Assembly (NCBI GenBank): GCA_950295325.1
Contig: OX485806.1
Coordinates: 186,001-250,000 of the forward strand
Source of the DNA: Polytrichum commune
Lineage: Eukaryota; Streptophyta; Polytrichopsida; Polytrichales; Polytrichaceae
DNA length: 64,000 bases
Reading direction: 5' to 3'
This document shows, in pieces, positions 9,301 through 61,144 of this stretch (positions are counted from its first letter, which is position 1; each line of letters starts with the position of its first letter). A program made the translations under genes and the position numbers. The notes beneath the pieces were generated by a model. The model was not told where the DNA came from, searched no databases, and worked only from the letters and a program-made list of their open reading frames with translations.

Positions 9301-9656
9301 TATCCTGCCTCCCGGTTTCTTATGGTTGTGTGCGGTTCTCTCGCAACAGTCATTGCCATTACAGTTGCCGACCGCTAACATTTCTTATTGACAACGGTGC
9401 TGGATTTTTGGCTGCCTTCCTTGACCATACTCCTGGCTGCCATGAGCTGTACTCCAGGAAACCCAAAATCAAATTGTGTGTGCCAATGGTTTTCATACTG
9501 TGTGCCACATCATATTAATTTTCAAACTCAAAATTCACATATAGACCTTGCAGTCATTTCTTTACAGCTATGGTTCTTGCTCCCATTTCTGTTCGCACTT
9601 ACTGCAGTATCTATGTGTCTCTGTCATGCTACGGCACATCAGAATGAATCTACAGC
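6350..9656. other. GC- and T-rich left flank of PIF copy 2, no gene
   Basis: Many overlapping short frames exist here but none has a recognised domain. The top strand is T/G-rich. The right flank of copy 2 (12.6-14.6 kb) has the same bias on the bottom strand, which fits one element with mirror-symmetric flanks. A candidate left end is TTA followed by GGGCCTGGCCGCACC at 6372-6389, since TTA is the usual PIF target duplication. It starts a hairpin (CCTGGCC 6378-6384 with GGCCAGG 6401-6407). A second perfect hairpin is TGTGCCGGAG (6509-6518) with CTCCGGCACA (6521-6530). I could not find a convincing partner for the end on the right side. Confidence 0.4.
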
Positions 9657-11456: not shown

Positions 11457-11491
11457 GGAAAAGACTAAATCAAAAGAGGATTCCAAGAACA

Positions 11492-12574: not shown

Positions 12575-14766
12575 CGCTCGACAAACAATGCAACCCACGC
12601 ACATGTAACAGGAAGTGTGCCAAATATCTACAAAAGTATTCCATAAATGACACACGGAAAAACTGAACGGACATCCAAATGTTGTTGTCAATCTGCATGC
12701 ATACAGAGTCACGGAAAGAATGCACCCAACATAAACCACGATGGCCACACACACTGGGAGGAGAGGCAGAGCTATGTGTTGGATCAACAAAGGAAAACCA
12801 TATGGAAAAGGCAAAAACTCCAAGTGTTGGGAACAGGCCACATGCAAACCATACATGCCAGCACGGAATTCAGCACACGCCAACAGAGGTCCGCCGAAGT
12901 GGAGCATGCAGGTGGTCAGGATCTGGAGGTAGTTCTCAGACTAGCGCCAATGGAAGCTCAAATGAAACAATAAAATGCGCGAAAAGAAGGCTACTTTAAG
13001 TTGAAACGACAGAGTCCACTGAATGACCGACACAAGATGAAGACTGCTGGCAAATCTGCTAAAACCCAAACATGAGGCCGCAACAAACATACAGGAAAAA
13101 TTACAACATTGCTGAGAGATGTCGACATGCAAAGAAGCTGAGGTCGGTCCACGATGATGACGACCACAAGCGAACAGACACCACAGTGCGTAACAACAAA
13201 CATATATATTTCTGTATGCAACTCGGCACAGAAGGAGGAACATCGCAGACAGTAAAGAGCGATCGGTACAACTGAAGTGTTGAATGAACACGGATTTGCT
13301 GGGACGCAGCGTTTGTCCTATGCTGAACCATGTTCGGCCATGGTGTGGCAATGGGAGACCTCTTCAAAACTGCAAGCAATGCCTACCAGCACCAAACTTT
13401 CACGGCCCCCAATTCCAGACACCGTCTCTAAAAAACCAGGGCCCCTAAACTACGCAGAGCATCTCCCAGCACACGGAAACGCTGCCGGCCTCCTGCAGAC
13501 TCGCCAACTGTTGGTCTGCGAACAACACGTCCTGCATGTGGTCTGCCGCAATGCAAGAAATGAATACACCCCTGGGTTGAGTCGAGCTTCAAGGATTGCG
13601 GTCGTGGCTGTGGCCCGCAGTAGCAGGGCGAGGATTGAGGCAAACCTGCACAACACATTCCGATAACCTCTCAGAAATATGGCGGAGTCTCCAACATAAA
13701 TGGACGGGAAAAAACACCAATGAATGGGGGTGGCCTCTAATACATGCCACCTTCAGAGGCCTATCTACGTTTCCCGTGCATTACATTCGAGGAACACACC
13801 ACGTGCAGAACAACAGACGTCGAACCCTAACCCGATTGTAGACGAACAGTCGTTGAACCCCAGAGGAAAACCTAATTCACAGCAGTGAAACTTCAATGCT
13901 CGGCCGGAAAGAGCTGGTTTCAGTCAACTACCGGTGAAATCCGTTATCCCTGTGTGTCGGAGCCAGCGAGCGACAACATGGAAGACAACAGGCATGCAAC
14001 TACAATACTTGAACCACTACACCTCTCCGGCGTGCACACAAAGCTCTCGCACGACCTCGCAAACCCTACAGCGGTTGCGCACAGCGCGAATGGCGCGCCG
14101 TGCGACCGCTGGAGAACACCGCCGCAGGCGACATAGCAACGGCCACCCGGAACCGAAGTACTGCAACGACACAGAACAGAACTATATGCGGACAAGGGTT
14201 GGCCTTGAAGTACCTTGCATTCGCGGCGACCTCCCAGGCGCAACGGATCATGGCGATTGGAGAACCTTAGGCGCCACCCAACCCACAGCTGTGGGACCAA
14301 AACATGGCGCCAAAACTCGCTCCGCGGAAGCGTGTGGAGACGATAGCGACCCCCGAAAAAGGTGCTCCAACACACCCTAAACGCACACCGCACTGGAAGA
14401 GAAATGCAGGGCAGAGGGGGAGAAACGACGGCAACAATCCGCGACACAGATTGTTGCGACGAAATACCTCGGATTGATGCGCCCGATTCTTGGCAGCCTC
14501 TCCCTATGCGCTCCACATGCCCCAAAGCCAAACGCCCATCACTCCCTCCCCTCACCTCCCTTCCCTCCCGCCCATGTTAGCTATCCCATCCTAGCGACCG
14601 CATCAAACCCCAAAGCCCCGGTGCGACCAGGTGCGGCAGCCGATTGGCAAGCTCATCGATCCGCCGAAGACGCACCAGCTTGCCGCAGTCCACCTCCGCG
14701 CAGCGTCGCCCCAACCCCAGACCTGCTTCAGCATGGTCCACCGGCACTGTCTCGCGGATCTCGTGA
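12575..14766. other. Right flank of PIF copy 2, no gene
   Basis: GC-rich sequence with many short shadow frames and no recognised domain. The bottom strand is T/G-rich, mirroring the left flank. It probably belongs to the same element. Confidence 0.4.
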
Positions 14767-24081: not shown

Positions 24082-27000
24082 ATGGAAATGTCTGCTGCTC
24101 CTGTCGGTGGAGTAGCAACATGGAAGACTCGTGGATATGACGTGTTTATAAATCACCGGGGGCCGGACGTGAAGAAGACATTTGTGGCTCATCTCTATGC
24201 TGCTCTGAGCAGTTGGGGAATTCGACCATTTCTGGATGCAAAGGACATTGGGTATGCGGTGCCGGTTTTTGAAGAAATTGACAAAGCACTGAAAGGTGCT
24301 TGTGTTCACGTGGCCATCTTTTCCAAGGGGTATGCAGAGTCTATACATTGTCTGGACGAGTTGTGTGCGATGTTGAATGGTAAGGGACGGATAATTCCCG
24401 TATTTTATGAAGTGGAGGCAAGAAACCTGCGAAGACCCGAGGATGGGCCATACAAGGAGGCCTTTGAAAAGCACCGAAAGCGTGGGAGGACAGAGAAGAT
24501 CCCGATATGGAAGGAAGCTCTTCACAAAGTTGCTGATTACAGGGCTTTTCGAATGGATGAAGTGAATGGGTGAGAGTCTCTCTGTTGTTGATGTTTCTTC
24601 AGTATGTGCTCATATTAATTACCACAAGTGATGAAAAGTTTCATGTTGTCGTCCAGGACCTCCCCTTCAGAAGAGTAGAACTTAAACTGCCTTCCACGAT
24701 TACAGGGTAGAATTTACGCAACGGTTAGCCCCAATAAGTTGCATATATTGACACAAATTCATAATGTATATGTTGCTGCAACTTATCTTATGGCCACTTG
24801 CCTTGATTCCACAGGCTGATGAGGCATCAGATTGTGTTTGTTGGTGTTTGTGGACTCCAGAAATGAGCACGAACTGATAAGTAGGATCGTGGTGGAAGTT
24901 CGAAATGCACTGCCCCCTGATTTGCTACCAGGAAGACGAATCGGGTTGGAGAAGTCCATAAAGGATGTGGTGGAGACACTTGAGAGTGTGAGTGTTATAG
25001 GTCTAGTTGGGATGGGCGGTGTTGGCAAGACGACCCTTGGCATGGAAGTATATAACTACTTTGTGTCATGTCAACGTTTTGATCGTTATTGTTTTGTAAA
25101 GGATGTGCGGTCAAGTCAGACTTCCGTGTTGCAGAATAATGTTCTACGTGATTTAGGCATTGGGTTGGAGTCGCACTGTAACGATCAGCGTGATTATACA
25201 CGCAGATTACGTGGTGCTTTGAAGGATTGGAGTGTGTTGGTCATTGTTGATGATATAAGTGACGCAGATCAATTCAAAGCTCTTATCCCTGAGATTAATG
25301 AGCTTGGATTGAAGTCTCGGATTGTGATCACATCACGGGCACGGGATGTGTTGAAGGATGCGATGAAAACTCTACCTGCGTCCTCCAAGGCTGTGTATGA
25401 CGTGAAAACGTTGGACAAATCTTACTCACGGCGTCTTTTCAACATCCATGCATTTAGGAGTGAGACACCAAGCGAAGGCTTTGTTGAATTGGCAGAGACC
25501 ATTTCAGACGCTTGTGAGGGACTTCCATTGGCTCTTACAGTGACGGGCAGTTACTTGTTTGAGGAGATGGATAAGGAAATATGGTTGGAATCAGTGAAAA
25601 TGCTAAAAGAGAATGGGGACATTATGGACAAGCTGCGAATCTGTTATGATGGGTTGCCCACAGATGGGGACAGGGCAATGTTCCGAGATATTGCATGCAT
25701 GCTAATCGGCGTGAAGCGAGAAGTAGCAATGAGAATTTGGAAATCGTGTAGAAATTGTGGTTGCAGTTGTTTGAAAACTCCAGCCTCATCGTTACGGAAT
25801 CTGATAGACAGGTCACTGGTAAAATTGGACAAGGATGACAAATTGAGAATGCATGATGTGCTTCGTGACATGGGAAGAGAAATAGTAGAGACGGATGGTA
25901 AGAAGGAAGGGCGACAACCAGCAAAAAAGTGGACACACTTGTGGGATCCGGCGATAGCCGAGAAAGAATTGAGGCGTGGGAAGGTAAGTGTCAAGGTATC
26001 ATGATTTCTGACTGCAGATTTGACTTGGTAGTTTACGGACAAGTGAGGGAGGATTATGTGAGACCAGCCTACCACAAATTTAGATCAAAAGAGACAAAAG
26101 TATTCAGGATCTTGTGCTCGACATACAGATACGACAGGCATCTGCTTTCTTGTTGGTTTGTTTGGAGTTTAGTCTAGTCCTGCAATGTAGAGAAGCTCTC
26201 CAATGAGTACTGTGGGGCCTGTAGGAGGGTATATTTGTCGTGGATTGATTTCTACATTGTTGAGGGATTTTGATGTTATGTTTTGACATTCTGTGTGGGA
26301 AATGAATAAGATGTGGAATGAAGTTGATTGATGTGCATTATATCGTGTGTAGGTGAATACCAAGACTCGGGGGATCTGTTTAACAGTATATGATCAAGGT
26401 TTTGATTATTTCTTTCAGAAATCTAGTCTATCTTGTGAAGCCAGTAAATTGGGAGGAATGCAGGAGTTGCACTTGCTTAGACTGGATGGTTGCAATGTGG
26501 TGCACGATGACTTCTCTAGTTGGTCCCAACAACTAAGATGGCTCCAATGGAGGCGCAGCCGATTGACAAGTCTTCCTCCGCAGTGGAATTTGCCACACCT
26601 GGTTGTCCTGGATCTCAGCTTGAGTTGGGAACTCATATGTCTTTGGGAGAAGAATGTCTATGTCATGGTAAGTCTTACTGAATTTTTTCCAACTAAAATG
26701 ATTGGATGAAGTTAAAATTGAAATTTAGCATTTAGCATTTTTGTTGTAATGGTTATCATTCTTAGTAGGCCGAGTTTGATTCTAGTTGTTATCATCCACC
26801 CACCAAGGCAGTTGCCCAAGAGATATCGGTGTTCACATTGATTTCATTTTTACCTTCCCAGGTGAATTTGACACACCTCGTTGTATTGGACCTGGAGGGT
26901 TGTCAAAACCTGAATTGTCTTTGGGAGAATGATGCCAATATTCAGGTAAAAGAGTTTTTTTTGTTTTGTAATGGATTAGTGACACATAAATATAAATCCT

Positions 27001-30000
27001 TATTTATTTTGAAACTTTCTACTTTGTAGACAAGTTTAAATATTGTGGTCAATATTGATTTCCAATTGTTATGGAATAATGGGGTGCCACATCTTGAAAG
27101 TAGACATGCCAAGCTGCCATGGTGCGTGACTTGGCGACTTGCCATGACGTATACATGGCATGGTGTGATGGGCATTTGATGACCATGTTTATAGGTCCAC
27201 ACGTTCATAAGACCAAATTATGGAAAATGTCAAAATAACATTGTTGTAGGAGTTGGAGTATGTATGGCATATGGTACATAATGATCAATTAACAACCAAA
27301 AGAGTGGGTTTTATCAAATGTGGACTAGTTTATTATGGACTGTGGACTCATTTACATTGGGAAGAGGACCATGGTATGTTTGCATACTTTTAAGGATGAT
27401 GGTTTCAGGTCTAAACAATTGCTTGTTATTGTGGCTTCTGAGGAATAGACAACTTGGAAATAAATAATAAGATTTATAGGAATTAAAGCTTCAAAGACCA
27501 TTGATGGCATAAAACATATGAGTCAAAGAATAAACAAATTTTCTCTAGTTACTTGAACTAGTATTTAATTAAGGTAATGTTTCACAAATGGAGAATATGC
27601 TTACATTTTGATTATGACATGTGTTCTTGTAGCTCCCGCGGCTCGAAGTGTTGAAATTGAAGTCGTGCAACAACTTGTTTGGACTTCCGAATAATTTTGG
27701 CATGAGTCTTCCAAAATTGAAGAGATTGGAAATGAATAGGTGTCAGAATTTGAAGACGCTACCGAACTCTATTGGTCTCTTGACGGAATTAGAACACTTG
27801 GATCTAAGTCATTGTTACGAAATGATTACCTTACCAAATACCTTTGGGGGTTTGGTAGGCCTAGAAACAATGGATTTATATTACTGCTATAAGCTAAAGG
27901 AAATGCCAATGGAATCGGGAAGATTGGTCAACCGTGAAGAACCTGATGTTGGGCTCAAGAAGTTGAAGAAGTTAGGAATGGTACGAGTAGGAGTGTGGCC
28001 CCTTCCAACGGACCTTGGGTTGCTCACATCCCTCACCTCATTATCCATGAAAATTCCTAGAGATGGTGTCCCTGCGGGATTTTACAGACTAAAATCATTG
28101 ACTCATCTATCTGTACGTTGTGGTGGAGATTTCTCCATGCGATTAAGGGATTCTTTAGGAGCGTTTACCGCTTTACAATCTCTTCTGATAAATGGGGTGG
28201 AGGCGATGTCCTACATCCCCCAAAGTCTGGGGGAGCTGAAGTGTTTGCGGCAAGTGCAAATCCAACTTTGCTGTGATTTGTTGATTATTGAAGCATTGCC
28301 ACAGTGCTTGGAGCACCTAGACCTAGAGGGTTGTTGTAATCTCATTGAGATTCCATTCTTAATGCCAATGAAATCATTGGTGCACTTGAACTTGGAGGAT
28401 TGCAAACAATTGAGGCATATACACGGCTTGGAACGCCTCACCACCTTGGTGTTCATCAATCTGGTTGGTTGTGTTTCCATAGTGGATCATGGAGTTAATG
28501 TTAATAAGGACAATAAAGCATTGCGCATATGTGATTTGAGGGATAGCAAACTTGGCGTGGCATACAACAATGGATGGTTGGAGGTAAGGCTTCTATCCCT
28601 TAAGTTTTGTTTTGGTGTTTTTCTTGATATTGAACCCCTAAATAGGATGGTGGCAGGTCTTGGGTGCCAATTCCATTAAGTGTGTTGATTTTCTAGTTTT
28701 ATGTAGACAAGAAATAATTAGAATTGTTACATTCACCGGAACCCACCGTGGCCAAATGATAAATATTGTCTCCTCTTCTTCTATAGCAATCCATAATTGC
28801 TATGAATATAGTACTTATTTTCCTTAAATTTAAGGTTTGGGTGTCAACCTATTTTATGGAAATATATTTGTTTATAAAGAGATTGGACCAAATCTCATGG
28901 ATTTGTGGAGAATTCCCATCTTATGGTATAAATGTAGAGTTTTATAATTCATAATGGTTTAACTCTTGAACATACAAAAGGGGTTGCCTACTAACTTGGG
29001 AAGGTTTTATGCAATATGTAGTACCCATTAATTGCACATGTGATTGTATTTTTGTTTCTTTTGAAGTATGTTGGGAAGTTTGTAGGCAATTTTAGTAAGT
29101 AAAAATGTGCTATGAATTGTTTATAAATACATGTGATCAAGAACATATAGGTGGATATTTGGTGAGTCAAGATATTAGTTCTTAAGAATAACTAAAGGTG
29201 TGATCATTATTCATCTTTATTTGATGAGTAGGCTCATGAAATAACATTCCTCATCTTTTGTTGAACTTGTAATGTAGTGAGAATATGATCAATTGGACTT
29301 CAATATTTTGAGTTTTAAATTTCTATCTTTTTTTGTGGAAAATAACATTTTCAATAAGGATACAATATGCGTTGTTGTACTTAACATCCCAAACCTCTAG
29401 AGACCCCAGTTGACATAGAGGTGGATTTGAAATATTCAAACACAACCATGGATCTCTCACTTCATCATGGATTATTAATATGTGAAGGAGACATGTGTAG
29501 TCACATACATGTAGTGCATACGTCTTATAGTAATTGGCCATGATATTTGAGGCTTGCTACATACAATATTCTTGTTGTGGAGAGATTCATGAAAGCGTAT
29601 GATAAATAAGGGAATGAAGAACATATGAGAAATGGAAGTTTTTGCAGGATGAACCTTATGCACAAGTGATCATCTGTGAGGGGGATAGATTTCCATCATT
29701 CCTTCCAAATGGTGTAATGGCCAGGTGTTCTGCTAGAGACCAACTCCTGGTAGCAGAGGCAACCATTTCGAGGAAGGCAGAGTGCATTGTCATCACGTGC
29801 TGCGCAACATCCGCATTCATAAACTCCATTGATCGTCCACCTACCATGAGGTTGTGTGTATTTAGGGGTGGCGAGTTGGTTGAGGAATCTAATTTTTTTC
29901 TCAGATCTCCTAAATCTTTGACAAGTCAACGGGTTACATATTGCGTTACATTGAGGAGGAAGCACCGTGTTGTGAAGGCAATACAACCCGGAGACAGACT

Positions 30001-30199
30001 TCTTGCGTTCCTTGATTGGGGTAAGTTATTACCGTTGGCTATCTCTATGTCGGAGGCAAATGTTTGTGTTGTCACTATAAGAAACCCGCGTTTTTGGGGT
30101 CGTTTTGGGGAAACGAGTGATGTCTTCCGAGATGTCACTATGTTCGGCAATAAACGCCCACAAAATTGCAGATTTTATTGGACGTTGCGTGAAACATGA
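24082..30199 (+). CDS. TIR-NB-LRR immune receptor, interrupted in its last exon by a CACTA transposon
   Basis: Intracellular immune receptor whose TIR domain is expected to cleave NAD+ when the receptor oligomerises. Exons: 24082-24569, 24831-25983, 26353-26667, 26862-26945, 27633-28583 and 29648 onward. All have GT-AG ends and their phases agree. Exon 1 holds the TIR domain (YDVFINHRG; catalytic Glu93 in CLDELC). Exon 2 holds NB-ARC: P-loop GMGGVGKTT about residue 223, LVIVDDI, SRIVITSRA, GLPLAL and MHD about residue 503. Exons 3-5 hold leucine-rich repeats (residues 548-997). Exon 6 encodes a beta-rich post-LRR domain. At 30072 a CACTA element splits codon 1139. The current frame continues 41 residues into the element and stops at 30199 (1180 residues). 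No other lesion is seen. The original 3' end is at 42471-42737. Confidence 0.92.
30070..30072. repeat. Left TGT target-site duplication of CACTA element B
   Basis: TGT directly precedes CACTATAAGAAA and is repeated directly after the right end at 42470-42472. Three-base duplications are characteristic of CACTA elements. Confidence 0.93.
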
Positions 30200-31166
30200 C
30201 AGATCATGGGCCAGGACATGGCGATGTCAGGAAGGATAGCCATGTTCTTGTGGATGTCATTTAAAACATGCTGACGTCCTGCGTCGGGCCGTTTGTAAGG
30301 CCGCTAACGCCACGTCATCCCCACAGGTCTATCCACGGCATGTATAAAGTTGCAGCGGGCAGACTTAAAGTGCTGCCCGGGAAAAAAAGGTTGGAGAATG
30401 TTCAACTATGTGTGGTTGGCTATAAAAGACAAACTTGTTCCCAAAAATTTGAGGGAATGCCACATAAATTTCTCATAGTGCATCAATATGGTTATTGGCA
30501 TGCATGTTATTCTCCCGAATTCCGTTCAAATATTTGTAGCGGATGAGCCAAAAAACACGGGGGTGGTTGAGTCATTCTCTAATTGCCATAAGGTAGACAT
30601 GCGGGACCACAATTGCATACCGTAGGTTCATATATAGCTGGTTCAACACATGTTAGCCGAATAATTAATTAAAGTGGAAAAATGCCCTTTGGATTAAAAT
30701 AGAAAAATTATGAAATTTCAAGTTTTGCTACAAAAGGAATGTTTTCTCATTCACTTGTTTATAATTTAGTTTGTCATATGTTGATTTTGATTTCAAAGGA
30801 TTTCAAAGGTTATATATTTGTACATTTAGACACGAGGAAATCAAGGGAAGACTTTTGCAAGCAAAATATGGCACTTCATTGCTCTCACAATTCCAAAAAT
30901 ACATGCGCCAAACGTGGGAGTGGCCACGTTGGATCTCGTGGCCACATTCCACATATAGACGAGCAACTGCTACTGGAAAATCTTAGTGCCTAGAAAATTA
31001 TGACCATCCGTCTGTTTGAACACAAAGGACGTCTCCGCGGACACCCGAGTAGACATCAGCCTTGACAGTCGGTTCCTCTCCAGCAAGGCGTCCCTTGTGA
31101 CGCAACCTTATACATTGCATGCCATGTGTGATGTGACGTTGCTGTAGGTGCTTTGGGTTGTAACCA
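30200..31166. promoter_or_regulatory. Left subterminal region of CACTA element B
   Basis: No gene. It contains several GACGTC/GATGTC motifs (about 30128-30320) and a hairpin-prone GGGCAGACTTAAAGTGCTGCCC near 30360. It is the likely site of transposase-complex binding and contains the 3' end of tnp2. Confidence 0.5.
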
Positions 31167-34100
31167 CTAATACTGTGTTCCTTCGTTTTCTTCTTCCCCA
31201 CGAACATCCAATGAGGCTGGGATGTGCATGCCGCCGTCCGTTGCGGGCTCTCTAGTGGGCTCTACATCTTGCATTTGTGGTTGTAAACCCACAAAGTCAG
31301 CATCGTGGCCGACATCGATTATGCGTGGTAAGGTCTGGTTGGTTTGTAGTTGCCCACGTCTACCCCTCACGTCCGTGCGACATACAACCTTCCATCCTGG
31401 CCTCGTCGGGTCATTGGAGAAAAAAACTTGTTGACAATGCAATGGAAATGCAAAAAAGTTTGAGTGCACTTTGCCATCCATGCGGTTGAAGTTTGCAACG
31501 GTGAAACCATATTGATCCCGTGTGATGTTAGGGTGTCGAGGATCTGCACTTGGGCGAACCCAATCGCACACTAGCACAGTGGTGCAATGATTTCGGTAGT
31601 CTAGCTCCAAGATCTCTTCGATGTAGCCCACATACTCCTCGGTTGTCTCTATGGGTCGCCCATTTCTCAAGCCCCATGGTATTTGTCGTGTAAATGAGGC
31701 CACCACACATGAATCGCGCGTGACGAGGCCACCCTCAGCACCTCGTACTCGGAAGTGCATGCCAAATGCATACATTTTCCGGTGTGAGATTGCATATCGC
31801 TCGGGAGATTGCGCGTATTGCGCAACATCGACGTCCACAACTTCGCCGGAGGAACGCTGACGTGACAGACGCGACGTCAACCATGTTGCAAAGGGAGGAA
31901 GATCGTGTAGTTCCAACGGATACCGCACTGCCAAAGTTGGATGCCGGCGGCGACACATTTTCCGAAAGGCCTCCCTCTCTTTCCAACGCGAAACTCTAGC
32001 TGCCATAAACTCCCTGCACAAGGTTGTGTGCCATTAAATTGTGGTTAGAAATGGCCCTTGCATGTATATAAAGGTGATGCAAAAGTGTGATGGCCATCAT
32101 CTGCAATATCACATGTGACGCGTATATCTCAAAAAGAATGTCATTTGGGACATCATGTCCAACACATCCTCATGCACTGCTGCATGTCACAGTTGACATG
32201 ACACATGTATTTTGCATTGGGTGACAGTATATATCATCGAGGCTTGAAGTAAAGTAAGTATGGGTTCCACTAACTCTCTGCAACGCTCCAATGACGACGC
32301 ATTGTCCAAAACAAAAGCGTGCGCATAGTTGCGGAATTCGTCGGACATCTTTCGCTTTTGTTGTGAGTTGCAACGGAGAATCTCATCGTTCATGGTTACA
32401 TCCTCTTCAGCGTCCCATACACGATGTGTAGTTCCTCTGTACTTATGCATGTACTCCGTGCAAAAACCAAGCGTGTCGTCCATTTGATAACCTTCCGCTA
32501 TGCTACCCTCCGGATGTGCAAATGTTCGAACGTAATCTTTCAACGTTTTCATGTACCGTTCTATGGGATATATCCATCGACAATGCACTGGACCGCACGT
32601 GTACAACTGCTCCACCAAATGGACGGGAAGATGCGTCATGACATTCATAAATGTGGGAGGGAACTCCTTCTCCATGACGCACGTCACCATCACCACATCC
32701 AACATTGTGCCCTCCTTGTCGCCTCTCTTCACCTCCTTGGCGCATAGTCTCTGAAACACTCTACTCAGTTTGATAATAGCTACGTGCACGCTTTCATCCA
32801 ATATGTTGCGTATAGCCACTGGAAGAATCTGGAAGACATGTATTTAGAAAGTCAGAGAACGATTGTGTCGCGCCCCCCTGGACATCAGACAGAACATCTA
32901 GGAGCGTCATGAAGAACATGGAGTGCGAGAACAGTTTGAAGATAACGTCCCCCAGGATGTTGACGCGTCAACCATGTTTTGAATGAGGTCTCAGTAGACA
33001 TCATGCGGTGTGTGCCTATACTCCTATGACACATTGATACATTGTATTACAACATTGACATCCCCGAGGGTGTCCTTCTTGACTTGCCTGTTGCATGAGA
33101 ACATGGTAGTCGTGCGTTTTCATGTACTGCAATTTCCCATCCGCTAGGCGCTTGTGAATGCTACCCACGTAGTTTGTGGGAGTGCGAATATTGGAGACGA
33201 TTCCAACAAACTCCGCGCGTTCATGTGGCCTAAAAACATAGGGAGCGTGCGGCATATAGTACCCATCCTGTGGCCGCCGTGGGGGTTGCAACCATATCTC
33301 TTCGCGTATTCCCAGGTCCTCCGCGTCGACCCTGCTTCCAAGACTATCATTCATTCCAAACAATGTCTTCAACAAGTTCTCGCACAAATTCTTCTCACAA
33401 TGCATAACATCGAGGATGTGACGCTCTAGCAGGTGATGCACAAGACACATGGGCAATTTCAGACACATTGCCAGCACTTTCATGGACACATGCATGCCTC
33501 GTCTATCCGTATGAGCAAAGCTGGTAATCATCATGGCCTGAAGCGTCAGGTCAGATGTCTTGGTGGACATCATTACAAACTACGTGACTAAGACGGACGT
33601 CGCGATGTCCACTTCAACATCTGTGGACAGGATGTGCAAACATTAATTGTTATACGGGAATCACCTACCAGTATTCCAGCTCGAACAACGCACTAAGTCT
33701 TTTGACGCCTGTGACATGCATAGGATCGTTGGGTCCGTTCTCTCTCCCTCCCATCTGTAGGTATGAATCGCGCCAAGCTGCGTATCGAATGATATCATCC
33801 CCCGACATCGGTTTTGGCCTAGGACGTTCCTCTTCCTCCCCATTGAATCTCCTATTCCGGCGATACGGGTGGTGACGGGGTAAATAACGACGAATGCCGC
33901 CGTAAACAATTTTGGTGCCCCTAATGCTCCGATTTGGAAGCATGTCTCCGGTTTTTGCCATCCTCGCATCGGTGTTTGGTCCACAACAAGGGCACCCTTT
34001 GTAGCCCTTACAAGTAAGACCAGAAATGAGGCCGAAAGCGGAAAAATCGGAAATGGTTCACATAAGTATGGCACGCAAAGTAAAAGTGCGACTCCCTTGT

Positions 34101-35422
34101 GGTTGGGAGAAATCTAAAGCCTCAACACCATACCAAAGCTCTTGTAGCTCGTTCAAAAGCGGTCGTATAAACACATCAATGTTTGAAGAGGACGGCGACT
34201 TCTTCCCGGAAATCAATATACACAACGAGATAAAAAACTTTTTGGTCACCAACCATGGCTCGAAATTATAAATCAAAATCAATACCGGCCACGTCGACCA
34301 GTTGGTGTTGTTTAGTTTAAAAGGATTCACTCCGTCCAAAGCGAGAGCCAGTCTCATGTTCCTATCGTCACGCCCAAAGTTGCCAAACGCGACGTCATTG
34401 TTGATATGCTTCCATGCATGGCTGTCAACCACAGAACGCATGATGTCATCACTGCTGACGTGTTTGGTGTGACCTGTCAATAGACGCGCTATCTCAGACG
34501 AGCGCCACATCCATCTCAACCTAGGAATTAGGGGAAAGTGACGGATTACTCTTGCAGGAATGTTGTTGCTGCCATCCAGCCATCGTCGCGCCGTGCACTT
34601 GGGACATAAATCATGATTTGCATATTCTTCGTCATATAGAATACAACCATTGGGGCATGCATGGATATTGTTGTAGGTCAATCCAAGTCGACGGATGCTC
34701 TTCCGAGCCGCATAATGAGTTTTGGGCAACTTGTTGGGCATTGGTAATAAGTCTCCAGACAAAAATCGGAACAACTCATCGGTAAATGTATTGCTCACAC
34801 GGAACACCGAGCACATGTTCATTATGATGATCGTGGCGGACACAACACTCATTTTTGAATCCGGGTACACTGGAGTCGTGGCTTCCGTATACAAACCATC
34901 CAATTCATCTTCGATGTCGCCGTCTTCCTCGTTCTCCATATGCAAACGTCCTTCAGCTACGGCCTCTTCGTGGAGTGCATCCCCTCTGCCCAGTGCCTCC
35001 AGCACCTGACGTTCAACTTCATGGAATTCATCCAGGAGGGGTGGGGGAAGTGCCCCGTTGTCGGCGTCCACGGGTTCAGGTAATGTGTTCGAAGGGATGT
35101 CTTCTACAACGTCGTTGTCACAACAGACGTCTTCCACCCACATTCCAGACGGTGGATATCCATCGACGGGGTCACCGCCTAGTAAAGACGTGGTTAGAAA
35201 TGGATCACGGCCAACTGCCGCGTGGTGTTGCCGTATAACTTGTATGGTTTTTCTGCGTCCACCCTTGCAGTCTTTGCAAGGACATCTAAATGTGTGCACA
35301 TTGTTCTCTGTCGCCACGCGGAGCTCCGTGTGAAGTATAAAATCCCCTATTGGCACGTGACGAAGTGTGCGTCCATCGTCCGTCAAACGAATGGTTGCAC
35401 CACGACGCACAGCCGAACCCAT
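31167..35422 (-). pseudogene. CACTA tnp2 (TNPD-like) transposase with a premature stop
   Basis: Catalytic transposase of element B. From the ATG at 35422, the N-terminal Cys/His segment (CPCKDCK...H) is followed by a tnp2 core in which GCILY, CPKC and RFPLIPRL-like motifs can be read. The core continues through TCKGYKGCPCCG and HILDVMHCEKN (about 33.4 kb). A DUF4218-like exon (32828 to about 32280; FPPTFMNVMTHLPVHLVEQ) and a DUF4216-like exon (about 32011-31167; YIEEILELDY) end it. At 34058-34060, where the family has Trp (ILM-W-TISDF), the codon is TGA, and the frame is open in phase on both sides. That limits the product to 454 residues. The 32829-33087 intron starts with GC. Two other junctions were not resolved. 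Confidence 0.88.
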
Positions 35423-36140
35423 GTTGCGTGTCCCGAATTGGAAGATGTTACCTCACCGGGCCGATGTTACACACCCTGCAGCGCTTCCGCAAGGTCTCCG
35501 CGTGGTCGTGTTGCGCATGAGCATTGATATAAACAGAGGACACCATTCGTTGACACTATGCGGAGTGTCTCTTCCAGGGTGGATGTCACTGAGAATGTCC
35601 ATGGGGACATTGCTGTTGATCTGTCGGCGTCAATTGTGACATCTTCCTGGACACCATTCGTTGACACTATGCGGAGTGTCTCTTCCAGGGTGGATGTCAC
35701 TGAGAATGTCCATGGGGACATTGCTGTTGATCTGTCGGTGTCAATTGTGACATCTTCCTGGACACCAAAATGAAGGTCACACACTACACGGCAGTGTGTT
35801 CCATACACACCCACGTGAGGGATTTGACTGCTGCAGAACATCGAAACCACAATGGTCACGTCGATGACCTGGATCTTTCATTCCCGCACACAATGGGGAG
35901 CGCACAGTGTTCGAATTAAGCACATGTCGCATTGGGTGTCTTACATGACGTCCAAGAAAACACTGGTATCTACGACGCCAGTAAAAAAACAATGTAACTG
36001 ACATTTTCCCACGTGTCCCAGAGGGTATTCCAGGCAGTGGATGCCCCAGAGGACCCTGAGAAGGCTCGCCGACATTCTCTAAACCCTAAGTGTTGCGGCT
36101 TCACCTTTGTACGCTCATTGCTTGAACATCCCTTAGCAGC
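35423..36140. promoter_or_regulatory. Divergent promoter region between tnp2 and tnpA-like genes
   Basis: The 718 bp between the two start codons must hold both promoters. It includes a 110-bp tandem duplication (35540-35759) and many GTGTCC/GGACAT-type words. No clear TATA box was assigned. Confidence 0.55.
35540..35759. repeat. 110-bp tandem duplication in the CACTA divergent promoter
   Basis: Copies at 35540-35649 and 35650-35759 start GACACCATTCGTTGACACTA and differ at about one base (CGGCGTC against CGGTGTC). A third copy starts (GACACCA) and then diverges. The near identity shows the duplication is recent. Confidence 0.95.
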
Positions 36141-37335
36141 ATGGCGGTGTCGCGTTCAGCACGAAAGCCTGGTAGGGTTGTCCGTTTTATAGACACATCA
36201 CAACATCTGCAAAGGGTGGATGTGGATGACTCCGAGGCCGCTGCAGTGTTGTCCACTTTGGTGTTTGAATGCGAAGAGAAGAATGCAATGATGCCATCCC
36301 AAAAACCCAACACAATTCAAAGAACCCAACGTGCACACCGCCGCCGCCGCTCACGCTTGCTCAACTTCTTTGGGAGTGAAAATTTCACAACACCCACTGA
36401 GTCATCGAGCATCGCTATCAACCCAGTTCCAAAACAGGTAAATCTTCCATCTCATATGCATGCATCACAATTTAGGTCACGGTCAAGTTCAAATTTTGCT
36501 GTGCGGCGAAATTTTTCGCCGCTCTCGGCCACTGGAAGCCGAACTCCGACAATGGCACTGGGAAGCCCGCATGCGGACACGCGGCAGCCCCCGGTTTTAG
36601 GTGCATGTACGGCCTCCAGTGGGTTGGGCATAGGGTCACAGTCGGCCATAGGTCTTCTCCAATGCCGAGGTGCATAGATCCTCTTACCTACGTCCGCTAG
36701 TCTCCATTGTGGTGTCTGCTGCAACGCCGATGTGTTGCTTTCCCTACGGCGTTGCGCTGCCTTCCCACGCCCTTGTGTTGCTTTTTCGACGCGCTGTGTT
36801 GCTTTTGGGTGTCCAAGATGTTGCGGACACGGGATCGCACTGGGAAGCGCAAGGAGATGTCTCCAGCAACATTGGTAGAACACAGGCGCGCAGCTGGAGA
36901 GCGGCGATCCAAGGCCAGAGAGGACCCGCGGCATGTGGCTGGGAGGCGTGGCTCACCCCCGGCAAGACGCCGCCGCATAATCGAGGTATCATCGGAGGAG
37001 GAGGATGCGGCTGAGGACGTGCCGGAGCAATCCTGGAGGTAAGTGGGTCTTTCTCCTCCTTTCCTAACCTCTTCCTGGTGTTGATGCTAGCGTAGAGCAC
37101 AACCAGTCTTCATCGTCGCGATGTCCGCGCCTGCTCGACCAGTTCAATTGAGCCGCGTCTAGGCCCATGTGTCACAGTGGATGTCGGTTAGACATCTGGT
37201 TGTCCAAGTGGACGTCCAATTTGAAAAGTGACATTTCGATCTCTGCTGGAATCATAGTCGGGGCGTGGGCATAATCGGTATTGCAGTCTGCGCAATTAGT
37301 AGACGTCACCTGTAGTTGTCTCTAGCATGTCCTTA

Positions 37336-38159
37336 GAGCGTCCCCACCAGCGGAGGTACAAGTCAGTTGAATGGCACTCCTGGAAATCCGGTGCCCAGGA
37401 GGGATAGGGCAAAAGAATGCACAATTTTGGATCAATGTAGCACAGACACAGACACAGACACAAACCACGCCACGCTCCAACTCCCTGGAGCTCCATGAAT
37501 TTTTTCCTTTATACCTGCAACTTGGGGTTTTGACGACGGTTATGGGACCATGAGCTTTTGACCACCCTGATCTGCAGTCACTAAAAGACTGCAGATTTGT
37601 TTTGTGGGTTTTACAGCTGAAATTTTAAGAATTTGGGGGCATGTTATATACCGTTGGAAAGGTATTGAAAATATCTTCCCAACGGTATATAACATGCCCC
37701 CAAAGTCTTGAAATTACAGCTGGAAAACCAAGAAAACAAATCTGCAGTCTTTAAGAACCCATTTCAAGATGGTTTAGGTAGGACGACTCAAACATTAGAC
37801 CATGTTGTTGTGGTCCATATATTAATGGGTGACAATAGAAAGTCTCAAATTAACTCATATAGTGATATTAGTGTAATGTTTTATTTCGTGATTGATGAAA
37901 ATCTAGTATGATTAGTGAATTAGTTAATTAGTGAATTAGTTAACGAGGGATTTTAGTATATTTCCGGGCGGAGAACCGAAAGGGATCGGGTAGGGAATCG
38001 GGCAAGGGCGTAATACCGGGCGGGGGCCGGCCTCGAAGAGGGGCATGCATGTACCCGAGCTAGTGGGCTCCAACAATATGTCGGGTAAACCCACACTATG
38101 CCCGGGGTGCCACCGGTGCAATTATGCCCGGGGCGGTGCCCGGTCTAGTGGGGATGCTC
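37336..38159. mobile_element. Tourist/PIF-type non-autonomous element nested in the CACTA tnpA-like intron
   Basis: The left end GAGCGTCCCCACCAG (37336) matches the inverse right end CTAGTGGGGATGCTC (ending 38159) with two differences. TTA flanks both sides (37333-37335 and 38160-38162), the usual PIF/Harbinger target duplication. It lies wholly within the 1.9-kb second intron of the tnpA-like gene, so it need not disrupt the protein. It holds a strong foldback at 37583-37752 and no gene. Confidence 0.85.
37583..37752. repeat. 170-bp foldback hairpin
   Basis: Arms of about 72-75 bp pair across a loop of about 25 bp. The inner part (GGGGGCATGTTATATACCGT) is a perfect inverse match and the outer part (AAAGACTGCAGATTTGTTTT) nearly so. 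If transcribed with the host intron, it could form a small-RNA precursor. Confidence 0.88.
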
Positions 38160-41100
38160 TTATGGCTTAGCTCCTATGGCGCACAACCCCCAATTAGTTG
38201 ATGGAGCCGACATTAGGGTTGATCCTTCACACGGGTCAATGTAATTGGCCGCTTTCGACCTCTCAGCAGTGAATTGGTTATCTCTTAAACTCAACCAGTT
38301 CATGTCTATGGGTAATCTTCCTGGACCCTAAACCTATCGAATGGATATACCCTCTTGGACAACCAGGTCATCTATGATGGGTACTCTTCCTGAATTCTCA
38401 ACCCTCAATTGGCTATTTCTCAAACTCATCTAGCTCAACTGTAATGGTTCATCTTCCTGAACTCTAAACCTTCCATTACATCTTTCTCACACGTAACCAG
38501 TGCATCGTGACTCGTAATATTCCTGCACTCTGTGACGGCCATTATCCCCTACAATGTCGGGTAATATTCCTGCACTCTAAACCTTCAATTGGTTATTTCT
38601 CGCACTATTTCAGTTTCGCGTGATGGGTAATCTTCCCGGGCTCTCAACATCCAGGTTGTTATTTCTTTCACTCAACCAATTCACGTGTGACGGGTAGTTT
38701 TTTTGTACTCTGAACCCTCAGATGGCCATTTCTCACACTCAACCAGCTTGAACATCATGATTGGTAATCTTCCTGAACTCTGAAGTTGCTCGACCATGCT
38801 CTTGACTGCGTGTATGATTCATAGGGGCAGTAACTGGTTGCAATGTGGCTGCTCAAGCTCAGTGGGTAGTCGCATATGTGTGCACCTGGAGATTCCTTGA
38901 TTGTGGAATGTGGTTGTTGTAGCCGAGGATACGCAACCAACTCGGGCACGGAATCAGACGACGATCAGGAGAACAATGATGGGATTGAAACATCACATCC
39001 ACTACCAACACGTAAGGGAGGGGGGAGCACTGCCTTGAAGAAACGTGTAGAGCTGGATGCGCAAGGGCAGCCTTTTGGCGCCATGAAGGCTGTCCTGTGC
39101 GCCGACATCAAGAAGTATGCAAAGGACCTAGATCCCACGACGGGATGGGAAGGCCAGCCACGGCACGAGAGGAAGCGATTATTCAAACGCCTATACACAG
39201 GTAAGGTTTGCACATCAATTTTTTGGCATGCATGTGTCGCGTTAATTTGCGATGTGAAACCCGAATCTGACATTTTAAGTGCAACCAAACATCATTCTGG
39301 ACATGAGCAACAGGGTGTATGTCTATGTAGGCAGGCATGACATTCTCGCTGACGTCAGGGTGGACATGTATTTAGCACAGAGTGTCATGCTGACAATCTG
39401 TGAGTGGATGCCGAACAGGACGTCCGTGCGTTTTTGTGGACATGTGTACTGAAACGCTCGACAATCGCTATCGACGTCCATAAAGACGTCGATGATATCA
39501 ATTTTCTCTCTTGTGGTGACATACTGGTTTGTACCCTTTCTAACGTGGGTGTAGTGTGGGCACCCAGTGTTGGTCGCTTGTGAAGTGAATGTGATGGCAT
39601 TGACGTGTGTGTCCGGCATGCAGACTGGGAGATGTGCGGGCATTGTGACAAAGTGTGCGAGAAGTGGATGCGGCCTATTATAACAAAGGTACTCATCAAC
39701 ACCCGGTGGAGGTTAAACCAGCTCATAGACAACAATGCGGGTAAACCAGCCGATGTGGATGCAGAGCATTGGAAAACACTTGTAGGTATGCGCGCCACCG
39801 AGGCTGCGCATTTGAAATCTCAGCACATGCGCTCAATTTCAAAAGGGAAAGGATCGACCACAGCTCAACTGAAAGCTATTGAAAGGGAGGTCGTCTCCCG
39901 TCTGGTAAGAGTGCCACTATGTCTATGTTGACATGGCTGACAATGTTGCAATTCTCTTTATAAATCTGTGATGGCCCTTATCCCCTACAATGTCAATGTC
40001 GACAACAGATGTCATCCAACACGTTTACTTAGACGTCCGATGAGCCGGCAATGTAATTCTAGTTGTTTGAGTTGATGTTCGATGTTAATCATGGCACTTC
40101 CAAAGGCGTCACGGGACCTGCACCTGTTGGAACGCATTGTTGTCGACGTCCCCTTTCATCCGTAATGACTTTAATATGCCATGTAGGCGATGTTGAAGAA
40201 CAAGGCACCGTACGATGCGGAGGTTGACGCCGAGGTTGCCAAAGAGTACCAACGCATACAGGAGGAAAAGCGCCGAGCGCGTCCCGATCATAGCTCGGAA
40301 ATGGAGTCGATGCGCACTCGAGTGACGGATTTGGAGGGCAGCGTCACACGCCTTGGAGAGAATGTGGCAGCCTCAAACAAGCGCATGGAGGACATGATGC
40401 GAATGATTCTTCAGAATCAGAGTCAGAAACATCCGACTAACATTGATAGCATGACGGAGCCTTCATCGTCTGCGAAGATGCTCGATATTTCGGCATTGAC
40501 GTCAACGACGGAGGATCTGGTGATGGTGGCACAGAAACAAGCTCCCACCCCAGTTATCAGCGCGGTGGGCGGTGCGGACATGCGTATGGCGTCCGCGATT
40601 CCTGTCCCGAGCGACGTCTCCGAGGATGCTGCGACTGATGCAGTCACAGACGTAGAAGCAGTGCCTCCCAGCTCTGAAACCATTATCGCGTCTATAATTG
40701 AGGACATTCTCGAAGTGCCGGAAAAAACGACATAGACACCTGTAATTGATGACCCTGTAGAACCCACCAACGAGGAAGTGCCAGTGCAAGCTATGGAGGA
40801 CGTCGAGGAAGGACACCCTGAGATATCCGGCAATGCGGACGTGCCTGAAGAGATTGCATCTCTGGATCAGGTAACATCAAGTAACACCCACCCATATTAG
40901 ACATACTGGAAACCCTCTCATTGTCGTTTAAAAAATTATACCTTCATGTATTTGTCTGGCATGTTCTTCGTGGTGTCATTGAGGATATCAACATGTACAT
41001 TAGGCTGGACGTTTGCCTTGACAGTTTGAATTATCGCAGAACAAAACGACCATAATTTGAAACCTCCGAGTACTAATGCGGAATGCTATTACATGATGAG

Positions 41101-41322
41101 GTGCCCGTACCGGAGGAGTCAGGTGGCCGACCCCGCCGTGCGGGTAGAAGCGCACAAGCGAAATCCTCAATGGCCAAACTCGGTGCACCAAAAGCGGTTG
41201 GTTTACCTAAACCTCCCCAAAATCTTGCGAAGGTGATGGAACTAGTGTTTGCATGCCTACATTGCTTGCATGATTGCAGGAGGAGTGTGGAGCACTCGAA
41301 TATAGTCACGTCGTTCGTGTGA

Positions 41323-42469
41323 GTTCATTTCATGTTCGGATGACCACTAATGTAATTCATGTGGTTTTGTGAATGGTGGTGGAATGGGGCAGGTGGGGAC
41401 TAGTACGAAGGTACAGACACAAAAGAAGAAATGAGTGGACGTTCTCAATAACGACGCGGCTCTCCATTCGAGTGCTCATGAATTATCCACTTAGTCGTGG
41501 AGGTGTAGACTTGCGACTATAGACATGGATGCCTCGATCATGGATAATGTTTAAGTTTTTGGGCAACTAGCGATTGATGTGTAAATGCAGCCTCTTGGTT
41601 GCAATATGTTGTATCAATGAAAACGTTGCATTTACGGAATTGGAAAGCATTGGTGTACATTTGTTTCACACGTTCTTTGTGTCTGTTCCGACTGTCTGGT
41701 GGAACAGTTGACGTCGGTGTTTGTTCTCATAGATGGCATAAGTGACGTGCATCTGACATTTGGTCCTGCTAATAGCCAAACAACTTGATGTCAGTAATGT
41801 GTTTGAGAATTTGAGGCAATCAGCCACGTCAAGGCGGGCTAAGCTTGAAAACGGCATCATCACTCCCAAACAAGCTGTGGTTTTGGCCAGAGGACATCCC
41901 CATAATTTGTAATGCCCCATTTGATGTCACACATAACATCCCACTGTCAAAAAGGATGTCCAAGAAAACTAAAAGTCACCCCGAAAACACCCAAAAAATA
42001 CATGCATACGTCGAGGAAAATGTCTCATGTGACATTTTCGTGTCGCAGAGGACGTCGGTAACAGCACACATCGCCACGTAATGCAATGTCCACGTCAGCA
42101 ACAGCGAATGCCACGTCAGTTTTTAATCGCATTCCACGTCATCTCAAGAGGGTCCACGAGGCCATCCACGTCACCGAGGGGGCGGAAAAAAAAGCGTGCC
42201 GACGTGGCACTACCCGCAAAAAACATGCTTGCGTGGCATGCCGGTGGCGTCCACGTGTCTTCACGTGGACACTATGGAACACCATGTTTTATGTGACGTC
42301 ACATAAAAACGTGCTGAAATTCCCCATGTTTTCGCATGTCCACGACGCGTTTTTCTCCTGTCTGACATGACGGATTTTAGGTGACGTCCAAGAGAAGAAC
42401 CTCCATGTCAAAGTGAACGCGCACTCCCGTTTTTTTTGACGTCACAAAAAACAAGATTTTCTTATAGTG
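41323..42469. promoter_or_regulatory. Right subterminal region of CACTA element B
   Basis: No gene is supported. From about 41.9 kb to the end there is a dense set of CACGTCA, GACGTC, CCACGT and TGACGTCA-type motifs in both directions, the expected layout of En/Spm subterminal binding sites. It ends with the inverted CACTATAAGAAA. Confidence 0.6.
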
Positions 42470-42472
42470 TGT
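42470..42472. repeat. Right TGT target-site duplication of CACTA element B
   Basis: TGT directly follows ...TTCTTATAGTG and matches 30070-30072. Confidence 0.93.
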
Positions 42473-42737
42473 GTATAATGGAGACGGGCACTTGCTTTTG
42501 GAGGTAAACTCGGAGTTGTTAAGCGAGGACGCATCCCGAGAATTGGAAAAGCAATTTGGAGAATTGGTATTGAAGGACGAAGATCAAGGCGAAAATGAAG
42601 ACGACAGTGAATACAAAATTTATTACGAAAGTGAAGACGAAAATGTAGACGAAAATAACGGAGAATCGAATAGAAAAAGAGGTGTATGTCGCACTTTGGG
42701 TTTCACTTTCCAACAAGAAAAAGAAGTGCAAATATGA
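42471..42737 (+). pseudogene. Severed 3' end of the TIR-NB-LRR last exon
   Basis: This is the remainder of exon 6, displaced 12.4 kb by the transposon. Joining 30072 to 42473 (one TGT copy removed) keeps the frame: the split codon becomes GTG and the next residues are YNGDGHLLLE. The fragment adds 87 residues after the split codon and ends with a TGA at 42735. It is strongly acidic in the middle (ENEDDSEY, YESEDENVDENNGE), followed by a basic NRKRG and a short hydrophobic end. It has no ATG or promoter of its own that I can see, so it is unlikely to be translated alone. Confidence 0.85.
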
Positions 42738-58800: not shown

Positions 58801-59287
58801 TCCACTTATTGGGAAGTGATAGAGTTATGGGGGATGTCGTGGAAGGTGGCTTCTACGATGCAAATGATTGTTATGGATGGCCTCTGGTCAAATGGCACGT
58901 TAGGGTGTAGAGTTTTGAAAGCACGTTTTCCCTCAAAATCTGGAGACTATTTAATTCCACGTTTTGAATTTACTTCTCAAATAGAGTGAGTACCTCATCA
59001 AGTCTATCTTTTTTCGTGGTCAGTACGTTGAGTCCTGATTCTGAAAAACGACGAAGAATTTAGTCTATAGTCACAAAATCCAGGGTCCCTATTGTTGTTT
59101 TATTTTCTTCGTGTTCCTGCTGTGTGCTTCTTTACATTTTCCAATTCCTCTTTGATGTGACTCTTGAGTGGGCTTGACAAGCAGAATTCAGCCTTTCCTC
59201 TTTATCGCTGCCCCCCGTCGATTATCTAGCTGCGAATGCGTTCTCAGAAACCTCATCTTTCAATTCAATAGACTCAAGGATAAATCT
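55871..59287. other. Upstream region of the guanine deaminase gene
   Basis: No gene supported. A (CAA/CCA)-type microsatellite lies at about 57065-57105. GC content rises at 57950-58530, where frames are open on both strands. This may be the promoter and 5' UTR of the guanine deaminase gene, but no TATA box or splice sites were confirmed. Confidence 0.4.
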
Positions 59288-61144
59288 ATGGCGCATTCGA
59301 CAGAAACCATGGCCGTCCGGGGACGTCTACTGACCTTCCTCCATGCGCCAAAGGGACCAGAGGACTCGGCGAGCTATCTTTATGTAAAGGATGGCATTCT
59401 TCTGACGCAGGGCGGGCGCATCACGGCTATCGGTCGAGCCGAGGAATTGGAGGGAAGGTTGCCGGTTGGCACAACCATCACGCATTATGAGCGCGAGTTG
59501 ATTGTGCCGGGCTTCATCGACACGCATATCCATTTCCCTCAGACGCAGGTCATCGCCTCATATGGATCACAACTCATGGAGTGGCTTGAAACCTACACAT
59601 TTGTGGAAGAGCTCAAGTATGTCGATCCCGCTCACAGCAATCGTCAGGCGGCCTTTTTTGTGGAGGAGCTCCTCCGCAACGGTACCACGACAGCGGCTGT
59701 CTATGGCTCGGTCCATCCAGAATCCGTGGAGGCTTTCTTTACGGAATCGCAGAGGCGAGGCACTTGCATGATCGCCGGGAAGGTGATGATGGACCGGAAT
59801 GCCCCGCCTGGTCTCACAGACACAGCGGAGTCGAGTTATTCCGAAAGCAAGGTACTAACATCACACGGGCTTGCTAAGGGAGAGGGAGACAGGGAAAACA
59901 CGTGTAACGTGTGCACTTATAACAAAGTTTCAAGATTTTGTAATATGGTCGCAGACTTATGTCATTTTGCGTTTTAGAACTTTATATTGGAAGCCTATTA
60001 TGCCTAGTACTTCACTTAAAGGTAACACTACTTTGATGTAGTTTTCTCATATTGGTATGAATGATTGCATAAAGTTCTGAAGACAATTTACACTATTAGT
60101 GTCTTAGACACAGCGGAGTTGAGTTATTCCGAAAGCACGGTCTTAACTGAACCCTGGCATCCTAAGGGAGAGGGAGACAGGGAAATATAGTTACACTACT
60201 TTGATGTAATTTTCTCATATTGGTATGAATTATTGCATAAATTTCTTAAGAAAATCTACTCTAATAGAGTGTCATGCATTGTTAGAATTGAATTGTGATT
60301 TTATAGAGTGTCATGCATTGTGTTGCGTTGATGATGAGATTGACAAAAGTATTTGTTTGAAATCAAGTTGCTGATCGAACGCTGGCATAAGAAGGGCAGG
60401 CAACTGTACGCTGTGACTCCACGGTTTGCGCCAACATCGACTCCAGAGCAGCTCGAAAAGGCTGGGGCTCTGATACGCGAGTTTCCAGACGTGTATATGC
60501 AGACTCACCTTTCAGAGAATGTGGACGAGATTGAGTTTGTGCACAAGCTTTTCCCGGAGGCCAAGAATTACCTCGACGTTTATGACAAGGCGGGCTTGCT
60601 CGGCCCCCGCTCACTGTTCGGCCACTGCGTCCATCTACAGGAGGATGAACTGGTGCGCATGGCGGAGAGCAAATCTGTTGCTGTGTTCTGCCCGACGTCC
60701 AACTTGTTCCTCGGCAGCGGGCTCTTCAACATGGCCTCCACCACGTCCAGCGAACGGCCCGTCCGTGTAGGTCTGGCCACCGACGTTGGGGGTGGCACTA
60801 GTTACTCGATGTTGCAAACTGCAGGGGACGCCTACAAGGTGCTTCAGCTGAAGAGTCAGAACTTCCCAGCTTTGGCTGCGTTTCACTTGATGACTCGTGG
60901 GAATGCGGAGGCCCTGAGCTTGGCTGCTGAGATCGGGTCACTGCAGGAGGGGTGTTTTGCCGACTTCGTCGTCCTGGACTCGCAGGCAACACCGGCCATG
61001 AGCCACCGCATGGAGACCATTGGCGATGGAGTTGGCGAGCTTGAGAAGGAACTGTTTGTCCTCATGACGCTCGGTGACGACCGTGCAGTGCGTGCCACCT
61101 TTGTACAGGGCCACAAGGTGTTCGATCGGACAGCCATGGCTTAG
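59288..61144 (+). CDS. Guanine deaminase (amidohydrolase type, GuaD-like), two exons
   Basis: This enzyme hydrolyses guanine to xanthine and ammonia in purine breakdown and binds zinc. Exon 1 is 59288-59851 and exon 2 is 60368-61144. The GT-AG intron is in phase 0 (AAG before GT; AG before TTGCTG), giving 446 residues, close to bacterial GuaD (about 440). Visible metal ligands: H80 and H82 in DTHIH, H235 in QTHLSE, H274 in GHCVH and D327 in ATDVGGG. The family words VMMDRNAP, SSYSESK, LLIERWHKKG, PRFAPTS, FCPTSNLFLGSGLF and VLQLK all point to the bacterial GuaD branch. The ATG at 59288 is the first in frame; one at 59309 (ACCATGGCC) has a better context. No signal or transit peptide is evident, so it is probably cytosolic. 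Confidence 0.95.
59819..60260. repeat. Duplicated exon-intron boundary inside the guanine deaminase intron
   Basis: The end of exon 1 and the start of the intron (from 59819, GACACAGCGGAGTCGAGTTA) recur inside the intron from 60107 (GACACAGCGGAGTTGAGTTA), including AAGGGAGAGGGAGACAGGGAAA. A second shared block, ACTACTTTGATGTARTTTTC, is at 60027 and 60194. Copy 2 has AGCACGGTCTT where the real donor reads AGCAAGGTACT, so its splice site is damaged. Confidence 0.88.

Follow-up and report, generated by a model that had tools for sequence, protein, structure and literature searches.

The stretch of Polytrichum commune DNA analysed here (the window; 64,000 nucleotides, C4:186001-250000) carries a gene for a receptor of the TIR-NB-LRR class (TNL; LRR, leucine-rich repeat), whose sixth and last exon is split by a transposon of the CACTA/EnSpm type. 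The window was compared with one genome (407.8 Mb, 64 contigs), in which four paralogues of the receptor gene lie at C4:138-162 kb (A), C4:471-481 kb (B), C4:522-529 kb (C) and C4:4.07-4.08 Mb (D). The parts of the gene and of the element are as follows.

24082..24569, plus strand: TNL exon 1, with the TIR domain (PF01582, residues 19-180) and a GT donor directly after it
24861..25983, plus strand: TNL exon 2, with NB-ARC (PF00931, residues 193-412) and WHD_ROQ1 (PF23282, residues 433-506)
26353..26667, plus strand: TNL exon 3, LRR (gene model, Pfam)
26862..26945, plus strand: TNL exon 4, LRR (gene model)
27633..28583, plus strand: TNL exon 5, LRR (LRR_14, residues 778-980)
29648..30072, plus strand: TNL exon 6 up to the insertion, encoding the post-LRR domain in codons 988-1128 (gene model; nonsynonymous divergence, dN, above synonymous divergence, dS; predicted strands of low confidence)
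30070..30072, plus strand: left copy of the TGT target-site duplication (sequence, paralogues)
30071..30199, plus strand: host frame entering the element, valine and 41 foreign residues (open reading frame, ORF, 29618-30199; stop 30197-30199)
30073..42469, plus strand: CACTA/EnSpm element, 12,397 bp (ends, duplication, domains, family copies)
30073..30084, plus strand: terminal inverted repeat at the left end, perfect over 12 bp and 77% over 31 nt (repeat scan)
31167..32033, minus strand: DUF4216-like part, 26.5 bits, below the cut-off of 30.6
32187..32843, minus strand: stretch of the transposase region of the element that matches DUF4218, E 6.2e-32
33665..35452, minus strand: Transposase_21 transposase, one frame broken by the TGA at 34058-34060 (ORFs, Pfam)
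42458..42469, minus strand: terminal inverted repeat at the right end, perfect over 12 bp (repeat scan)
42470..42472, plus strand: right copy of the TGT duplication (sequence, paralogues)
42473..42737, plus strand: TNL exon 6 after the insertion, a conserved stretch and an acidic tail, with the stop TGA at 42735-42737
42709..42710, plus strand: one base fewer than in 4/4 paralogues (paralogue alignment)

The gene model has six exons, and its five introns are all GT-AG with matching phases, as a sequence-only reading of the window had proposed. All five splice pairs are retained in A, B and C, and one acceptor is lost in D. With its Pfam order of TIR, NB-ARC, Roq1-like winged helix and LRRs, the gene is a TIR-NB-LRR and is similar to plant receptors of the RPP1/ROQ1 type; unlike these, its post-LRR domain has no Pfam or PDB sequence match at the thresholds used. 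When the flanks of the element were joined by script, the frame was open for 1216 codons from the ATG at 24082, with the insertion in codon 1129 and 87 more residues from there to the TGA. The sequence-only reading was right about this open frame and its 87-residue continuation, and the codon numbers it gave (1139 and 1226) are both 10 too high. It had also noted no other lesion, which very nearly holds: codons 1-1128 have none, but the tail is one base short near 42710 compared with all four paralogues, which alters the last 8 residues. The acidic stretch varies in length among the five genes, being 48 bases longer in A and 47-49 bases shorter in B, C and D than in the window.

The element begins at 30073 with CACTATAAGAAA, the inverse of which ends at 42469, and TGT stands on each side, so that the insertion first described from the sequence is confirmed. 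It shares with CACTA (EnSpm) transposons their termini, a 3-bp duplication, Transposase_21, DUF4218 and, weakly, DUF4216. All of the 20 left ends read start with CACTATAAGAAACCC; right ends were sought in five other copies and found in three, each of them with a 3-bp duplication (TCT, TCA and AAT). Two minus-strand ORFs match Transposase_21 (E 1.4e-35 and 6.8e-18) and lie in one frame with one stop between them. Unlike a standard CACTA element, the window copy does not have the intact transposase frame of an autonomous element, as the TGA at 34058-34060 falls inside the Transposase_21 domain. Inside the element we also observed a 111-bp tandem duplication, 99% alike (35538-35759), an inverted repeat of 86 nt around a 3-nt loop (37581-37755) and an array of ~67-bp repeats (38258-38790).

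For the transposase, pieces of five other copies were taken, four of which aligned to the element there. The TGA at 34058-34060 is common to the window and L058 (C5:13.89 Mb), and the same position reads TGG in L062, L064 and L066. A second window stop, at 33665-33667, occurs in none of the four compared copies, at a position that may or may not be coding. Across the 33665-35452 frame L062 has no stop at all, and L064 and L066 are stopped elsewhere. Because the stop at 34058-34060 is common to the window and another copy, the window element was probably moved by a transposase supplied from another copy. Given this stop, self-excision of the window copy is unlikely, and mobilisation in trans is possible since the L062 frame has no stop. 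The earlier suggestion of a revertible allele is therefore weakened as to self-excision and survives as possible mobilisation in trans. The locus may also be a presence/absence polymorphism, as the same reading suggested; the comparison covered one genome.

The joined window flank aligns unbroken through 30072/42473 to A, B, C and D, each of which has a single TGT at this point. In these alignments, the empty site is established to the base by four sister genes. The sequence-only reading had named paralogues that fail to join at 30072/42473 as grounds to refute the insertion, and the insertion withstands this check. The sequence-only reading had asked for a paralogue with an uninterrupted last exon, and C and D do have a last exon free of inserts, though no member of the group is intact.

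The insertion appears to be recent. At least 32 further copies match the left-end query of the element over its full length at 98-99% (best 40 of 322 candidates scored), and each of the 20 copies read, window included, shows 1-9 departures from their majority over 928 positions; for the copy in the window the number is 6, of which 5 are private. Judged by its copies, the CACTA family is young and high-copy. In the transposase stretch (~2.1 kb), 21 differences are private to the window against up to four copies, a figure inflated by the small sampling, and 14 of these are C to T or G to A, a bias that matches the direction expected of deamination. Moss sequences change at a rate of ~9e-9 per site per year, by which a divergence of 0.5% would correspond to roughly half a million years, as an order of magnitude. 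The lesion-free frame was considered as proof of function and dropped: the neutral probability of zero lesions in 1128 codons is 0.71, 0.32, 0.16 and 0.03 at divergences of 0.1, 0.33, 0.54 and 1%, respectively, and the values at 0.33% and 0.54% leave zero lesions unsurprising. Of the earlier proposal that the receptor was functional until a recent insertion, we therefore keep that the event is fairly recent and that the gene was open to that point; function is plausible and unproved, since zero lesions are unsurprising in so young an insertion.

When the exon-6 domain was searched as protein against the genome, 8 matches came up (8/8 candidates scored), all within the window gene and A-D. An NB-ARC search gave at least 110 matches (110/429 candidates scored), of which six correspond to these five genes at 87-100% identity, the next being a partial match at 59%. 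From this gap and from the confinement of all exon-6 matches to five genes, the subfamily is, by sequence, one of five members, with none found intact in the genome compared. Apart from the inserts, the window gene and B are open, over 1216 and 1213 codons once the flanks are joined. Paralogue A has two 1-bp frameshifts besides its insert. Paralogue C is stopped at codon 398 and twice more in the tail, and most of its intron 5 is gone; D lacks an ATG where the start should be, and stops and frameshifts break it in several places. Neither C nor D has an insert in exon 6.

The insert of A (16,439 bp, C4:145355-161793) has ATTG on each side and near-perfect inverted ends starting AACACTATATTCG, and carries a DUF7869 ORF (E 9.6e-43). 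Its family is 92-99% alike among the matches listed (best 40 of 849 candidates scored), with the nearest others at 99%. Sola-type transposons have a 4-bp duplication, as with ATTG here, and DUF7869 is associated with them, so that the insert may be of this type. The same insert also has an ORF piece with a match to NLI-interacting-factor-like phosphatase (E 5.5e-6), and long tandem repeats. The insert of B is a single TG..CA long terminal repeat (LTR) of 1,907 bp (C4:472103-474009) with CACAT on each side, that is, a solo LTR. Among the best 40 of 1,378 candidates scored, 39 other matches extend over all 901 bases of the query at 1621 bits vs 1626 for identity, or about one mismatch. A two-LTR pair at C2:39.77 Mb, with CTACA on each side, has LTRs 99.4% like that of B across 1,412 bp, and these match the 5' part of B's LTR in pieces only. 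The LTR family of B was probably active very recently, to go by these similarities. Several same-strand pairs ~9-10 kb apart were also seen among the family's listed matches.

In the exon struck, pairing the window, A, B and C in all six ways over codons 988-1128 (141 codons per pair) gives dN of 0.156-0.200, dS of 0.030-0.064 and a ratio of 2.8-5.2, with Fisher tests of nonsynonymous over synonymous change at p 0.001-0.014; the pairs are non-independent and the p values uncorrected. The four pairs with D (134 codons, gap and stop codons dropped) have ratios of 1.07-1.31 and p 0.20-0.50, and give no support. In 10/10 pairs, nonsynonymous divergence in this domain exceeds intron divergence. The LRR exons also lie above the introns, though synonymous sites are raised there as well as nonsynonymous ones. 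Elsewhere in the gene, dN/dS over the ten pairs is 0.42-2.63 in the TIR, 0.66-1.13 in the NB-ARC exon, 0.91-1.22 in the LRRs and 0.31-1.41 in the tail after the insertion. A separate origin for the last exon, raised by a drop in BLAST identity at exon 6, was set aside when the drop proved milder in gapped alignment.

As for kinship, the post-LRR domain matches no Pfam family (E up to 0.1) and no PDB chain by sequence (E up to 1), and its predicted fold had 0 PDB fold matches at E <= 0.001. The prediction has eight strands and two short helices, in a single-sequence model of low confidence (mean predicted local distance difference test score, pLDDT, of 54). The domain is comparable to the angiosperm C-JID in that both occupy ~140 residues after the LRR, are mostly beta (by low-confidence prediction for the window domain) and evolve fast, and the high-entropy post-LRR residues described in PMC8226289 are similar in this last respect. 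It differs from the C-JID in having no profile match, and the first motif given in PMC8813719, P-X-[Y/E/W]-F, was sought by eye with no exact match. That review calls C-JIDs unique to flowering plants. Truncation of the domain in flax P2 is reported to lose resistance, and N and RPS4 are reported to trigger no cell death once their C-JID sequences have been deleted or mutated (PMC8813719).

In window coordinates, the insertion points are 29789 for A, ~29820 for B and 30072 for the CACTA element. Three genes thus carry three kinds of element (CACTA, DUF7869 element, solo LTR) in the same exon 6 across a span of ~283 bp, and the two otherwise-open members, window and B, are both broken by an exon-6 insertion. 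The probability that all three fall in exon 6 is 0.0013 if insertion is uniform over the 6,256-bp gene and 0.0068 over coding sequence only, and that of three within 283 bp is 0.0058 and 0.017, respectively; these values were computed after the pattern was seen, from n=3 events, and are suggestive only. Targeting of exons by the CACTA family was considered and rejected, as a frame of >110 codons abuts the junction in 1/19 other left flanks (L041), and by eye, without a family search, that frame resembles a retrotransposon polyprotein. The 19 flanks include two (L054 and L055) that share one flank, and short exons or introns escape this test. Left flanks of the CACTA copies have a GC content of 0.34-0.47, and 0/19 of the other flanks has a receptor protein match. 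The CACTA family does not look exon-specific, by the flanks read. In Arabidopsis, ATCOPIA93 is reported to prefer exons and ATENSPM3 to be spread over genes (PMC6668482). Our case is similar to the preferential insertion into environment-responsive genes described there, in that elements strike an exon of an immune gene, and differs in that three kinds of element lie in one exon of sister genes, in a small retrospective sample. A further reading, which we think unlikely, is that the post-LRR exon of this subfamily is a true insertion hotspot, or that repeated truncation was selected. Three kinds of element would then have struck, independently, one 283-bp stretch that by dN is the fastest-evolving part of the gene, and this part would be a recognition module comparable to the C-JID and outside flowering plants.

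Taken together, we consider it very probable that a member of a young CACTA family with many copies inserted in exon 6 of a then-open TIR-NB-LRR gene and truncated it, with recognition most likely lost. Host translation would continue for 42 codons beyond 1128 and stop in the element. If transcribed, the predicted product of ~1170 residues would keep TIR, NB-ARC and LRR and lose the end of the post-LRR domain and the acidic tail, and recognition would most likely be lost by analogy with angiosperm TNLs cut in the same region. Two other elements have interrupted this exon in two sister genes, and the remaining two have decayed by point lesions, so that no intact member was found in the genome. 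Several points weigh against this account. The truncated product may still signal, and the one-base difference in the tail might predate the insertion. The C-JID analogy is based on angiosperms, and kinship of the window domain with the C-JID is at most putative. Finally, the paralogues give the former look of the site as sister genes, and are not the empty allele itself.

On one hand, the truncated TNL could have been kept because it is useful, with a new element-derived C-terminus (42 codons and a stop), for example as a sensor whose C-terminal domain is loosened or retargeted. The host frame does enter the element and stop cleanly, the 1128 upstream codons are free of lesions, and B is in the same state, open except where exon 6 is cut by the solo LTR. 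However, both insertions are young and intact frames are expected without selection, A, C and D have decayed, and angiosperm receptors that lose this region are reported to be without function (PMC8813719); we regard a useful truncation as very improbable. On the other hand, the gene may have been inactive before the element arrived, the insertion being neutral debris in a dying subfamily of which five of five members are broken, and the tail that is one base short compared with all four paralogues would fit such a history. We regard this as very improbable, as the effect of the one-base change is confined to 8 residues at the end of a variable tail, whereas the 1128 codons before the insertion are lesion-free and the splice sites are all intact. 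A misassembly that set a CACTA copy between halves of different genes has a next to negligible chance, for although many near-identical family copies can mislead assemblers, the 3-bp duplication is exact, both flanks continue one exon to the base as in four paralogues, and some differences are private to the copy in the window.

Apart from the receptor gene and its transposon, the window contains at 59168-61144, on the plus strand, an amidohydrolase-type guanine deaminase (PRK09228, TIGR02967) with two exons or more. For its second piece, the best-scoring solved structure is 6ohb, the Escherichia coli enzyme. Because plants are known to use an unrelated guanosine deaminase, this gene may have been gained from bacteria. 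A DDE_Tnp_4 element at 9648-12940, presumably Harbinger-like, has a Myb/SANT-like ORF with a match just under the cut-off and a second copy, 74% identical, at 37-2647. Elsewhere in the genome, fourteen light-harvesting protein matches of equal top score lie within ~94 kb at C5:1.75-1.85 Mb, in a large tandem array. One light-harvesting protein (L073) has its highest score against 9vfj_2, a chain of 620 residues (548 bits), followed by 8htu and 7xqp (482 and 480 bits), 8c29 (447 bits) and others at 443 bits or less; 8htu and 7xqp are from the moss Physcomitrium, 8c29 is from spruce and the next ones are mostly from angiosperms, an order that would fit a moss.

The loss of receptor genes to mobile elements is well known, and the event in the window is of this known kind; what adds interest is that sister genes suffered convergent damage and that the exon struck evolves fast. 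In the titles and abstract openings of the openly licensed papers listed (15 of 199 on CACTA insertions in TNL genes, 15 of 22 on elements in the last exon of nucleotide-binding leucine-rich repeat receptors, NLRs, and 10 of 20 on moss TNLs), no description of this case was found. The locus is unusually clean: four sister genes give the empty site to the base, and young elements have interrupted one and the same exon in two receptors that are otherwise open. It is a good case in which to ask if insertions are drawn to exons of this kind or if truncation is favoured. Its dN/dS of ~3-5 across four close paralogues marks the post-LRR domain as a candidate for a recognition surface in a non-flowering plant. 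Most likely, the window records how receptors have recently been lost, through truncation in a recognition domain that evolves fast, and this bears on the pace of receptor-subfamily turnover in such a plant.

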